DNA from: an uncultured Bacillota bacterium
GTDB lineage: Bacteria; Bacillota_I; Bacilli_A; RF39; UBA660
Length of the DNA stretch: 39,239 nt
Assembly (NCBI GenBank): GCA_947303895.1
Contig: CAMYZQ010000003.1
Span: forward strand, 1-39,239
Direction of reading: 5' to 3'
Below the pieces are notes generated by a model. The model saw nothing but the letters and a program-made list of their open reading frames with translations. It was not told the DNA's origin and did no database searches. The position numbers were made by a program, and so were the translations under genes. Shown here one piece after another: positions 2,920 through 7,523 of the stretch; positions within the stretch are counted from its first letter, which is position 1, and each line of letters starts with the position of its first letter.

Positions 2920-2944
2920 AAAACATCTTAACGATGTTTTTTTA
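2920..2944. terminator. Bidirectional terminator between convergent genes
   Basis: AAAACATC/GATGTTTT stem (2920-2927 and 2933-2940), loop TTAAC, with T residues on the plus side and an A run giving T residues on the minus side. It separates the plus gene ending at 2919 from the minus gene ending at 2942. Confidence 0.85.
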
Positions 2945-3502
2945 TTTGAATTTATCAATATTAATAATTGGTATTCTACGAGGTATATTAGGGTAGTATG
3001 TTGAAAATACCCAATCAACTGTAAATACTGTTATAAGTATTATTATTATAGTTAATAATACTTTTTTATTACATTTATCTATAATCTTTTTTACTGCAGG
3101 AACTAACATATAAATAACAATTAATCCTGATAAACCAAATGCTATAGAATATGGTAAACATATTTTACCATTAATATTAAATGGTTTATCTGTATAATTC
3201 CACCAAGACATACCATAAGTATATTCCATGTATGTACTTGTTAAATATTCAGATATAGTACATATAACAAAAGACCCCATAAATATAAACCACTTTTTAT
3301 CCCTATATTCATATAAAAGAATATATATTAAAAATGCTCCTGATCCATATATAGGAAGCCAAGGACCATGTAGTTGACCACAGTTCATGAAATTACCATT
3401 TTTCATAAACTCCCATAATATTTCCCAAAACCATCCTATAAAACAGCTAATTAGAAAAAGTAGGTTATATTCCATGAATTTATTTATTCCATTTTTTTTC
3501 AT
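2942..3502 (-). CDS. CmpB-family membrane protein (putative ABC-transporter type IV, PF06541-like)
   Basis: 186 residues, about five membrane helices. The motifs CFIGWFWEILWE, GPWLPIYGSGA and the SWWNYTDKPFNINGKICLPYS segment match the CmpB-like putative ABC-transporter permease family; a paralogue lies at 6843-7523. The start at 3502 is chosen because AGGTGATTAC precedes the ATG and a minus-strand TGATATAAT lies at 3519-3527. The longer open frame to 3658 runs through tRNA-His and is not coding. It is monocistronic and divergent from the tRNA. No ATPase partner is nearby, so a transport role is uncertain. Confidence 0.8.
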   Translation of the reverse strand: MKKNGINKFMEYNLLFLISCFIGWFWEILWEFMKNGNFMNCGQLHGPWLPIYGSGAFLIYILLYEYRDKKWFIFMGSFVICTISEYLTSTYMEYTYGMSWWNYTDKPFNINGKICLPYSIAFGLSGLIVIYMLVPAVKKIIDKCNKKVLLTIIIILITVFTVDWVFSTYYPNIPRRIPIINIDKFK

Positions 3503-3518
3503 GTAATCACCTATAAAA

Positions 3519-3527
3519 ATTATATCA
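3519..3527 (-). promoter_or_regulatory. Extended -10 promoter for the CmpB-like gene
   Basis: Reading the minus strand, TGATATAAT at 3527-3519 lies about 17 nt before the ATG. It is back to back with the tRNA-His gene. Confidence 0.65.
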
Positions 3528-3580
3528 TAAATTACTTGTATATTTAAAAAATATGTGTTATATTTAATAAGTAATTTCAT

Positions 3581-3657
3581 GGCGGAATTGGTGAAGTGGT
3601 TAACACGGCAGATTGTGGCTCTGTTATGCAAGGGTTCGACTCCCTTATTTCGCCCCA
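3581..3657 (+). tRNA. tRNA-His (anticodon GTG)
   Basis: A 77-nt cloverleaf with a genome-encoded G-1 that faces C73 and an encoded CCA. Acceptor GCGGAAT pairs with ATTTCGC (one G-U). D stem GTG/CAC. Anticodon stem GCAGA/TCTGT with loop TTGTGGC, so the anticodon is GTG. T stem AAGGG/CCCTT with a TTCGACT loop. The extra G at -1 is the known identity element for HisRS. A strong terminator follows. Confidence 0.97.
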
Positions 3658-3670
3658 TTTGGAAAATAAA

Positions 3671-4621: not shown

Positions 4622-4649
4622 TGTAGTAAAATTGTAGTATTTTTGTAGT
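4622..4649 (+). promoter_or_regulatory. Three TGTAGT direct repeats at 11-bp spacing (candidate operator)
   Basis: TGTAGT occurs at 4622-4627, 4633-4638 and 4644-4649, each start exactly 11 bp after the last, ending 7 bp before the -35 of the following promoter. Helically phased short direct repeats are typical targets of cooperative ribbon-helix-helix dimers; the first gene downstream encodes such a domain. Role as an autoregulatory operator is inferred. Confidence 0.5.
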
Positions 4650-4655
4650 TTTCTA

Positions 4656-4684
4656 TTGACAAGTATTTTTTGTGGTGTTATTAT
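4656..4684 (+). promoter_or_regulatory. Promoter TTGACA-N17-TATTAT of the nucleotide-pool operon
   Basis: A perfect TTGACA at 4656-4661, a 17-nt spacer and TATTAT at 4679-4684. One of the few strong -35 elements in this window. Transcription should start near 4691, just ahead of the RBS, which rules out the upstream in-frame start at 4672. Confidence 0.85.
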
Positions 4685-4704
4685 CTATTCAAGAGGTGAG
4701 GAAA

Positions 4705-5289
4705 ATGGCTAATAAAACTAGTGCTATTAATATTCAAGTAGATAGCGATGTTAAGCAAGATGCAACATTAGTGTTAACAGAATTAGGTTTATCAATGAGT
4801 TCTGCAATTAATTTGTTCTTAAAACAAGTAGTTAAGAAGAATGGACTTCCATTTGCAGTTACTAACGTAGTTGATACTAAAAAAATATTAGATGTAGTAT
4901 GTGCATTAATCATGAAAGATGGTAAATGTTTAATTGCTAAAAGAAACAAAGATGATCATCTAAAGGGTAGATGGGAATTTCCTGGCGGAAGAAGACAAGG
5001 TCTTGAAGATGAAAAGAAAACTCTAGAAAGAGCATTTAATGAGGTCCTTGGAATTAAAGCTAATATTAATGATTATTTAACTCATAGTATATGTGAATAT
5101 CCAGGTCATATAGTAGATCTTAAAATTTATGAATGTGATTATGTAAGTGGAGAATTTACATCTCCAATACACTCAGAATATAAATGGGTTAACATTGAAG
5201 AATTATTAGATTATGATTTAGCTGATGCTGACGTAATACTATCTAAATTTCTTATTAGAAAATATATTGAAGAAAGTAGGAATAAATAA
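4705..5289 (+). CDS. RelB/DinJ ribbon-helix-helix domain fused to a degenerate Nudix domain
   Basis: 194 residues. Residues 1-52 match RelB/DinJ antitoxin DNA-binding domains (INIQVDSDVKQDA, LGLSMSSAINLFLKQVV, then the hallmark GLPF). Residues 60-190 are MutT-like Nudix with WEFPGG. The Nudix box is G95-x5-E101-x7-R109-A110-F-N-E113-V114-L-G116: two metal-binding glutamates (equivalent to E53 and E57 of E. coli MutT) are replaced by Ala110 and Val114, so hydrolase activity is doubtful. The next gene encodes an intact Nudix enzyme of the same type. By analogy with NrtR (Nudix plus winged helix), I infer a ligand-sensing repressor of this operon. RBS GAGGTGAG. No toxin gene is adjacent. Confidence 0.85.
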   Translation: MANKTSAINIQVDSDVKQDATLVLTELGLSMSSAINLFLKQVVKKNGLPFAVTNVVDTKKILDVVCALIMKDGKCLIAKRNKDDHLKGRWEFPGGRRQGLEDEKKTLERAFNEVLGIKANINDYLTHSICEYPGHIVDLKIYECDYVSGEFTSPIHSEYKWVNIEELLDYDLADADVILSKFLIRKYIEESRNK

Positions 5290-5702
5290 TGAAAGTAGTA
5301 GAAGTAGTAGCAGCAGTTATAAAAAAAGATAATAAGATACTTGGAACTGCTAGAGGTTATGGATATTTTAAAGGTATGTGGGAGTTTCCAGGTGGAAAAC
5401 CAGAAGTTGGTGAAACAAAAGAAGAAGCTTTAGTCCGTGAAATTAAAGAAGAATTAAATGCTGATATTAAAGTAGAAGATTATATATGCACAGTAGAATA
5501 TGATTATACTAATCCTGATTTTCATTTAATAATGCATACTTATTTTTGTGAATTATTAAATGATCATATAGAGATGGTTTATCATGATGAAGAAAAGTTA
5601 GAACATGAATCAATGAAATGGCTTTCTAAAGAAGAATTAGACTCTGTTGAATGGCTTGGAGCAGATATAGAAATAGTTAATAAGTTAAAAGAATTATTGT
5701 AG
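5289..5702 (+). CDS. mutT: MutT-like Nudix hydrolase (probable 8-oxo-dGTP/NTP diphosphatase)
   Basis: 137 residues. The Nudix box has all catalytic residues: G36-x5-E42-x7-R50-E51-I-K-E54-E55. The usual Gly at the end of the box is Asn57, a tolerated variation. The WEFPGGK sequence before the box and the SMKWLSKEEL segment resemble 8-oxo-(d)GTP-type MutT enzymes, which cleave oxidised NTPs to NMP and pyrophosphate. The ATG overlaps the stop of the regulator gene (TAATG), so translation is coupled. It shares WEFPGG and overall length with the Nudix half of the preceding protein, suggesting tandem duplication and divergence into sensor and enzyme. Confidence 0.9.
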   Translation: MKVVEVVAAVIKKDNKILGTARGYGYFKGMWEFPGGKPEVGETKEEALVREIKEELNADIKVEDYICTVEYDYTNPDFHLIMHTYFCELLNDHIEMVYHDEEKLEHESMKWLSKEELDSVEWLGADIEIVNKLKELL

Positions 5703-5711
5703 GAGGGTTAT

Positions 5712-6032
5712 ATGGTTAACATAAAAGAATTACAAGATAAAGTATATCAAAACAAAGTAAATCATGGGTTTAATACAACAAATATAGAAATGGAATTTTG
5801 TTTAGCTTATGGAGAACTTGGTGAAGCATATATTGCATATTTAAAGAAGAAAGAAGACCTAGGAGAAGAATTAGCAGACGTTATTATATATCTTCTTGGA
5901 ATATCTAAAATGCTTAATATTGATTTAGAAAAAGAAGTAGTAAATAAAATAGAAAAGAATAGTAAGAGGGTTTATAAAGAAAATTCAAAAGGGGTTCTTG
6001 TAAAAGAAGAAGAACTAAACAGCGAGGTATAA
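5712..6032 (+). CDS. MazG-like nucleotide pyrophosphohydrolase
   Basis: 106 residues, single all-alpha MazG-type domain. The metal-binding signature is present: ELGEAYIAY gives ExxE and EELADVIIY gives ExxD. Such enzymes hydrolyse non-canonical or surplus (d)NTPs to NMP and pyrophosphate. The short length fits the single-domain dimeric or tetrameric forms rather than full-length MazG. RBS AGGAGGGT, 9 nt after MutT. Together with MutT it makes a nucleotide house-cleaning cassette. Confidence 0.85.
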   Translation: MVNIKELQDKVYQNKVNHGFNTTNIEMEFCLAYGELGEAYIAYLKKKEDLGEELADVIIYLLGISKMLNIDLEKEVVNKIEKNSKRVYKENSKGVLVKEEELNSEV

Positions 6033-6033
6033 A

Positions 6034-6774
6034 ATGAAAAACACAAAAAAATTTTTAGAATTAAAAACATTATTTGAAAATTTATCTTATGATGATTTAG
6101 AGTCACTTTATACATTACTTTCATTAACTGGTAAAATTGATGATGAATTTAGTGAAGCAATTGATTCAACATATTTTCCTATGTATAATAAACTTGCAGA
6201 ATCAGGAGAATTTGAAGGAAGAAATGAATATGATAATTTAACAAGATATCATAATTTTAGTCTTTCAAAAATAATGGATTTATTTAATCGAATGACAGAT
6301 ACACAATTAAATGAAATATGCAAACTTGTTGGTAAAGCATATGGTAAAATCCTTGAAGAATTAAAAACGAATGAGTGCTCAGGTAAAATTGAAATGCTTC
6401 CTAAATTAGATGAATTCATAAAGAGATTTAATAAAAGAAAAGAAGCTAAAGAAATACTTAAAAAGCTAAGTAGGAGTGATCAAGTGTTATTTGGGTCAGC
6501 ATTAGATTTATCAGTTGGATTTGATGTGGGTGATGAAAAAGAAGTATTAAGAAGAATTATTAGTGAATCTAAGTCTAACAAGACGGGAAAACTAAACAAT
6601 AAACAGCTATATCATATTCATAATATAACAAGTAGCGCTTTAGGGGTTTTAAATTTAGAGGTGTTTGAAGATTTAACATATCAAAGAAGTTTAATAGAAG
6701 AATTTAATGGAAGAGTAAGTAAAGAAATAGAAAATAGAAAAGCGGGTAAAGGTGCTAAAACTTTAACTCCATAA
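6034..6774 (+). CDS. Unidentified helical protein, last gene of the nucleotide-pool operon
   Basis: 246 residues, starts one base after the MazG stop with GAGGTATAAA as RBS. Predicted soluble, almost wholly helical and charged; no membrane segment, no cysteine motif apart from isolated residues, no catalytic signature that I can name. Position as fourth gene behind a sensor-like protein, MutT and MazG suggests it acts on the same process, but that is context only. A strong terminator follows. Confidence 0.75.
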   Translation: MKNTKKFLELKTLFENLSYDDLESLYTLLSLTGKIDDEFSEAIDSTYFPMYNKLAESGEFEGRNEYDNLTRYHNFSLSKIMDLFNRMTDTQLNEICKLVGKAYGKILEELKTNECSGKIEMLPKLDEFIKRFNKRKEAKEILKKLSRSDQVLFGSALDLSVGFDVGDEKEVLRRIISESKSNKTGKLNNKQLYHIHNITSSALGVLNLEVFEDLTYQRSLIEEFNGRVSKEIENRKAGKGAKTLTP

Positions 6775-6816: not shown

Positions 6817-6842
6817 ATATTATAATAATATTGGTGAATTAT

Positions 6843-7523
6843 ATGAGTATATTTTTAACTGGTGTTTTTATTTTTATCCTTGGTAGTATAGTAGGATGGT
6901 TATTAGAAATAGTTTATAGAAGATTTATGTTTGGTAAACTAGTTAATCCTGGTTTTTTAGTAGGACCTTATTTACCTATATATGGATTTGGTTTATTATC
7001 TATAACTATATTACATAATATACTTATGAGATTCGATTTAAGTCCTATTGTTGCTATTCTTTTAATGGGAGTAGTAATGACATTAATAGAACTTTTAGGT
7101 GGTTTATTTTGTTTATCACAAAAAGTTAAGTTATGGGATTATAGTGATAACTGGTTAAATTATAAAGGTATTATATGTCCTTTATATTCATCTATGTGGA
7201 TATTAGCAGGAGCTATTTATTATTTCTTCTTATATGATCCACTTATGTATGCTGTTAACTGGTTTAATGATAATATATCTTTTTCATATGTAATAGGAGT
7301 ATTATCAGGATTCTTAATAATAGATTTCTTTTATTCATCTAAGTTATATATTAAGATTAGAAAATATGCTAAGAAGAATAATATTGTTGTTAGATATGAA
7401 AAACTTAAAGATCATATTAAAGATGAAACTAAAAAAGCAGAAGAAAAATACTTTTTCTTGTTTCCATTTAGACAAAGTAGAAAGTTAATAGAATATCTGG
7501 ATAGTTATAGGGATAAGAAATAA
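6843..7523 (+). CDS. CmpB-family membrane protein (putative ABC-transporter type IV)
   Basis: 226 residues with about six membrane helices. GSIVGWLLEIVYR, GPYLPIYGFG and LWDYSDNWLNYKG match the same PF06541-like family as the gene at 2942-3502. The ATG at 6843 is preferred over TTG 6831 because GGTGA lies 5 nt upstream. A basic, lysine-rich cytosolic tail follows the last helix. It is coupled (TAATG, one-base overlap) to a lipase-like DUF2974 gene. Confidence 0.8.
   Translation: MSIFLTGVFIFILGSIVGWLLEIVYRRFMFGKLVNPGFLVGPYLPIYGFGLLSITILHNILMRFDLSPIVAILLMGVVMTLIELLGGLFCLSQKVKLWDYSDNWLNYKGIICPLYSSMWILAGAIYYFFLYDPLMYAVNWFNDNISFSYVIGVLSGFLIIDFFYSSKLYIKIRKYAKKNNIVVRYEKLKDHIKDETKKAEEKYFFLFPFRQSRKLIEYLDSYRDKK

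Follow-up and report, generated by a model that had tools for sequence, protein, structure and literature searches.

The stretch of DNA analysed here (the window, 39,239 nucleotides from an uncultured Bacillota bacterium) contains three direct repeats of TGTAGT, a strong promoter directly downstream of them, and an operon whose first gene encodes a fusion of a ribbon-helix-helix (RHH) domain to a Nudix domain (Table 1). The array is an exact TGTAGT-N5-TGTAGT-N5-TGTAGT, with units at 4622–4627, 4633–4638 and 4644–4649, as the original prediction had reported. That prediction also described the units as exactly one helical turn apart and as ending 7 bp before the −35 element; the spacing is indeed 11 and 11 bp, but this slightly exceeds one turn (10.5 bp), and TTGACA does lie directly downstream, but after a gap of 6 bp. 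The high rank that it assigned to the −35 element was borne out, as the promoter scores 11 out of 12 and is joint best among 43 sites between positions 2000 and 8000. Inspection of the units by eye for a palindrome revealed no conserved inverted half. Translation starts at an ATG that is common to the orthologues, and the GTG start of the mechanically called open reading frame (4672) falls inside the promoter.

Table 1 Features of the repeat array, its promoter and the operon
Feature	Position	Strand	Basis
Triple TGTAGT direct-repeat array, proposed operator of the RHH-Nudix protein	4622..4649	+	Sequence, pattern searches, conservation in 17/17 orthologues
−35 element TTGACA	4656..4661	+	Promoter scoring; TTGAC invariant in all 18 promoters
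Extended −10 element TG-N-TATTAT, 17-bp spacer	4679..4684	+	Promoter scoring
Ribosome-binding site GAGGTGA	4693..4699	+	Sequence
RHH-Nudix fusion, 194 amino acids	4705..5289	+	PF04221, TIGR02384 and NUDIX_4 profiles; ATG start common to orthologues
RHH (RelB/DinJ-like) domain, beta-strand SAINIQVD, predicted contacts A-N-Q	4720..4857	+	Profiles, nearest solved relatives
Degenerate Nudix box GRRQGLEDEKKTLERAFNEVLGI, RE to RA and last catalytic E to V	4987..5055	+	Comparison with Gx5Ex7REUxEExGU
Second Nudix gene, near-intact box REIKEELN	5289..5702	+	Start overlaps fusion stop (TAATG); profiles
MazG-like all-alpha nucleoside triphosphate pyrophosphatase	5712..6032	+	PF12643; nearest structures dCTP pyrophosphatase 1/RS21-C6
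246-amino-acid protein, probable last operon gene	6034..6774	+	No profile match

Conservation and singularity of the array

A scan of GTDB genomes found the fusion again at 17 other loci (80–98% identity), giving 18 with the window. The hosts of the orthologues are all metagenome-assembled Bacilli/Erysipelotrichaceae-like genomes, and their named habitats are mostly ruminant or rabbit gut. The original prediction had proposed that orthologous upstream regions be compared for the same repeats, whose absence would have counted against it; the comparison came out in its favour. Three TGTAG units at 11/11 bp occupy the same position before TTGAC in all 17 orthologues, one of which has a single base change (L040, first unit TATAG), and the DNA farther upstream is unrelated among the loci. 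The bases between the units differ (AAAAT, ATTTT or AAATT) and the distance from the array to the −35 element is shifted by 1 bp in two loci (L028 and L030); the 11/11 spacing is constant in all. The repeat unit itself needs restating: TGTAGT is exact in the window, but the core conserved across orthologues is (T)TGTAG. Two members of the genus that lack the fusion, G006 and G011, also lack the array. Judged by this comparison of sequences, the phased array is under strong selection and its 11-bp phasing is rigid.

Within the window the array is the sole match to its pattern even when three mismatches are allowed (0.11 expected), and TGTAGT is the only non-trivial hexamer that occurs three times at 11 bp. 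Across the 1.13 Mb assembly to which the window belongs, for which genome-wide figures rest on pattern searches, up to three mismatches gave one match (the array) versus two for the reversed control pattern. A chance or leftover repeat without function might be suspected in a region that is A+T-rich, with 30 copies of TGTAGT on both strands of the window. However, the exact triple is expected only ~6 × 10−6 times per window (first-order Markov estimate), and the array is kept in every orthologue amid unrelated flanks; we regard the probability of such an origin as negligible.

The RHH-Nudix protein and its operon

The N-terminal part of the fusion is a RelB/DinJ-type RHH domain, matching PF04221 RelB (1.7 × 10−11, amino acids 6–59, 44.3 bits against a cut-off of 22.4) and TIGR02384 RelB_DinJ (63.4 bits, cut-off 45.65). 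Among proteins of solved structure, DinJ and RelB come nearest to it in sequence, and its beta-strand is invariant in the 18 sequences apart from a V/I exchange. The remainder has a Nudix fold (NUDIX_4, 1.6 × 10−14; PF14815 and PF00293 also match), and an AlphaFold model, useful for this part only, gives a predicted local distance difference test (pLDDT) score of >80 over most of it. The closest relative by sequence is the CTP pyrophosphohydrolase NudG/ORF135 (2rrk, 2.6 × 10−18), and the closest by fold (Foldseek) are NudG/ORF135 (2rrk, 1.5 × 10−11) and MutT2 with dCTP and 5-methyl-dCTP. The domain thus resembles these and other (d)CTP or oxidised-nucleotide Nudix hydrolases in sequence and fold, but unlike NudG/ORF135 and MutT2 it has lost the catalytic RE and the last E of the box. 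All 18 sequences have G-x5-E-x7-R-(A/S)-F-x-(E/D)-x in place of REUxEE, and catalysis has therefore probably been lost; elsewhere in the domain the stretches THSICEYPGHIVDLK, EY[KR]WV and ELLDYDL are near-invariant.

The constant partner of the fusion is the MazG-like pyrophosphatase gene, found downstream in 18/18 loci. Its profile match is barely above the cut-off (PF12643, 27.5 bits against 27), and it matches dCTP pyrophosphatase 1 at 1.8 × 10−4. In half of the 18 loci the downstream genes include a Nudix gene whose box is near-intact, and one of the loci (L041, 5736–6245) has a dCMP deaminase beside the second Nudix gene in the same operon. The resemblance to dCTP pyrophosphatase 1 and the deaminase together hint, weakly, at cytidine-type nucleotides as substrate and ligand. 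The 246-amino-acid protein has no match in Pfam, NCBIfam, PADLOC or PHROG; tblastn places divergent relatives of it after the MazG-like gene in L025, L033 and L035. A PF06541 gene (putative ABC-transporter type IV family) flanks the operon on each side, at 2942–3658 (−) and 6831–7523 (+).

PDC-S07, a phage-defence candidate in PADLOC, has matches in both Nudix domains (5289–5702, 2.9 × 10−43; 4876–5253, 1 × 10−34). An IMG/VR scan with the alignment gave 37 matching loci, nearly all over the Nudix part alone. A phage origin is not indicated: L245 and L250, in which the match reaches deepest into the RHH part, encode large, unrelated phage proteins that contain a Nudix domain.

Repeat units of RelB-domain genes

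We scanned 386 genomes of the host family blindly for TGTAG-N6-TGTAG-N6-TGTAG and obtained 19 exact arrays: 9 in front of RHH-Nudix genes, 3 in front of stand-alone RelB/DinJ genes and 7 of a GTAGNCTAC-like repeat type. The three stand-alone genes match the RHH-Nudix protein over its RHH part only, and allowing one mismatch adds arrays before two more stand-alone RelB genes (L056 and L060). Because the arrays also precede genes that share the RHH part alone, binding is most naturally assigned to the RHH domain, in support of the original prediction that this domain reads the repeats. By this evidence the array tracks the RHH domain and not the Nudix domain, and it is almost certainly the docking site of the product of the first gene. 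The GTAGNCTAC-like palindromes lie in intergenic arrays that are also phased at 11 bp (TGTAGCCTACCTGTAGCCTACTTGTAG; L045, L048, L057, L061, L062, L071 and L072), and G259 and G400 each contain several of them; no RelB-type gene was found adjoining them.

A YafQ toxin gene directly follows the stand-alone RelB/DinJ gene in all three loci in which the next gene was scanned. The fusion, with its RelB/DinJ-like RHH domain and an operator shared with three such relatives, could accordingly be the antitoxin of a pair whose toxin is the Nudix part or a downstream protein. However, none of the 18 loci showed a RelE/YafQ-type gene behind the fusion; the genes directly downstream there are of MazG-like, Nudix or unknown type and none is a recognised toxin, and the Nudix domain has replaced the C-terminal segment that would bind a toxin. 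We rejected membership of a toxin–antitoxin pair for lack of an adjoining toxin gene and hold it to be improbable.

To place the array in a wider context, we compared upstream regions of 137 RelB-domain genes from the host family and measured periodicity on 109 non-redundant promoters. Base identity at a lag of 11 bp was 0.469 (95% confidence interval 0.448–0.488), compared with 0.331 at lag 10 and 0.324 at lag 12, and with 0.343 (0.326–0.361) at lag 11 in 84 control promoters of other genes. Relative to dinucleotide shuffles, the signal is strong at 11 bp (z = 16.5) and evident at 22 bp (z = 6.8). It persists when genes with an A-N-N or A-N-Q strand are removed (0.453, n = 81). On the basis of these promoters, 11-bp direct repeats upstream of the −35 element are general among RelB genes of the family. 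Elsewhere in the class the signal is weak (0.367 in 63 RelB promoters of other families), and many of these 63 have, in its place, inverted TTGT...ACAA sites in the interval from −35 to −10.

Classes of repeat unit follow the predicted DNA-contacting residues of the RHH beta-strand. Strands with A-N-N or A-N-Q pair with TGTAG units; N-N-R strands are accompanied by AATGACAATGT-like units, and the ATATTGA-like units of N-S-R strands extend into the −35 element. One genome, G141, has several RelB strand classes side by side, each with a different unit. A phased TGTAG pair occurs in 20 of 40 promoters of A-N-N/Q-strand genes and in 2 of 97 with other strands (Fisher P = 4 × 10−11, a value that shared ancestry inflates and that is thus not independent evidence for each gene); promoters of other genes have none (0/225).

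These data bear on a different kind of binder. OmpR/PhoB-type regulators recognize hexamer-N5-hexamer direct repeats with 11-bp spacing next to the −35 element, and the consensus of WalR is TGTWAH-N5-TGTWAH. A WalR-like response regulator could therefore bind the array, with the RHH domain targeting something else, and the format and position of the repeats fit. However, such a global regulator would be expected at many sites per genome, whereas the host has one array; the arrays are confined to RelB-domain genes and missing from the two genus members without the fusion; the fifth base is G, not A; and the repeat unit switches with the RHH beta-strand. We rejected a WalR/OmpR-type operator on these grounds and consider it very improbable.

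Proposed regulation and known systems

Taking the evidence as a whole, we think it highly probable that the array is the operator of the RHH-Nudix protein and that the operon is autorepressed; a nucleotide-binding Nudix domain may relieve this repression, and the protein is probably of DinJ-like antitoxin origin. RHH-Nudix dimers would line up along a single DNA face, each on its own 11-bp unit of the array; adjacent RHH dimers would touch and cooperate, reaching the −35 element, and the bound dimers would block RNA polymerase and so repress their own operon. With less certainty, the probably inactive Nudix domain may bind a nucleotide (perhaps of cytidine type, or a damaged deoxynucleoside triphosphate) and leave it intact. 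Binding might then free the protein from DNA and induce the MazG-like pyrophosphatase and the Nudix hydrolase, which might clean the nucleotide pool. A DinJ-like antitoxin whose toxin was lost is the probable source of the DNA-binding domain, and the best reading of the protein that the sequences allow is a domesticated antitoxin turned autorepressor, probably nucleotide-sensing.

The protein might instead bind the array and activate the promoter, given that the array occupies about −70 to −42 relative to the predicted start, a position that activators use and that is clear of the −35 element. We infer repression in preference because the promoter has an extended −10 element and already comes close to consensus, and because RelB and DinJ are autorepressors (PMC2812701, PMC9592637); in other strand classes of the host family, moreover, the 11-bp repeats extend into the −35 element. 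Activation is in our view unlikely. Some points nevertheless weigh against an autorepressed, nucleotide-responsive operon. The location of the array just upstream of the −35 element would suit an activator too; nothing but relatives points to the ligand; the RHH part is poorly predicted in the AlphaFold model (pLDDT about 40); the association between strand and operator is partly confounded by common ancestry; and the published operators of RelB (PMC2812701) and DinJ (PMC9592637) are inverted repeats over −10 or −35, which makes the direct-repeat arrangement a variant on known RelB/DinJ operators.

One precedent is RelB of Escherichia coli, dimers of which bind cooperatively to TGTA-core hexads on one DNA face (PMC2812701). 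Like RelB and its operator relO, the system proposed here combines a RelB-type RHH domain, TGTA-core units ([A/T]TGT[A/C]A in relO), a strong promoter (repressed in the case of relO) and several dimers on one face. Unlike relO, which consists of palindromic 12-bp half-sites without spacing, the array comprises 11-bp direct repeats upstream of the −35 element with no visible inverted partner, and its operon has no gene for a toxin co-repressor. The resemblance to DinJ–YafQ of E. coli and L. paracasei (PMC9592637) lies in DinJ being among the nearest solved RHH relatives and in the YafQ genes that follow the stand-alone relatives. DinJ operators are inverted, one of 20 bp over −10 and another of 28 nucleotides over −35 with 16 bp between centres (PMC9592637), and in our own alignment the RHH strand of DinJ has an essential Arg where the fusion has Gln.

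For the fused domain, the parallel is NrtR, a catalytically dead Nudix regulator of NAD metabolism that is released by its ligand (PMC6800001). NrtR, too, joins a degenerate Nudix box to a DNA-binding domain, adjoins related metabolic genes and is an autorepressor freed from DNA by ligand. It differs in having an N-terminal Nudix domain and a C-terminal winged helix-turn-helix, whereas here the RHH domain is N-terminal and the NudG/MutT-type Nudix domain C-terminal, and in its palindromic operator, whereas only direct repeats are found here. Dimers of the RHH repressor Arc bind adjacent half-sites about 11 bp apart that are inverted about a centre. The array shares this spacing but is made of direct repeats, and Arc has no fused domain. 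The Arc–DNA structure served as a template for modelling DinJ (PMC9592637).

A broader evolutionary proposal has, in our estimation, even chances of being right. RelB/DinJ antitoxins of the host family (gut and rumen Bacilli) would have shifted from palindromic to 11-bp tandem direct-repeat operators, with the unit read by three beta-strand residues as a readable RHH recognition code, and one antitoxin would have been domesticated as the repressor of a nucleotide-cleaning operon, with its dead Nudix domain serving as the nucleotide sensor. In the open-access literature (subscription journals lay outside the search) we found nothing relevant on an RHH-Nudix regulator or on antitoxin operators built of 11-bp direct repeats. 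The locus offers a concrete case of a toxin–antitoxin DNA-binding domain turned into an apparent metabolite-responsive regulator, with an operator that evolution already delimits nearly to base resolution. The strand-dependent 11-bp units provide many natural protein–operator pairs for testing rules of RHH recognition, and suggest a way for multiple antitoxins in one genome to escape cross-regulation.

Four further RelB-domain genes with long frames, from outside the host family (L295–L298), are not Nudix fusions. Two of them, from another family of the class (L295, 401–1033; L296, 383–1033), join a RelB-type RHH domain to a non-Nudix C-terminal part of unknown type, and the gene downstream of each looks RhuM-like by eye.
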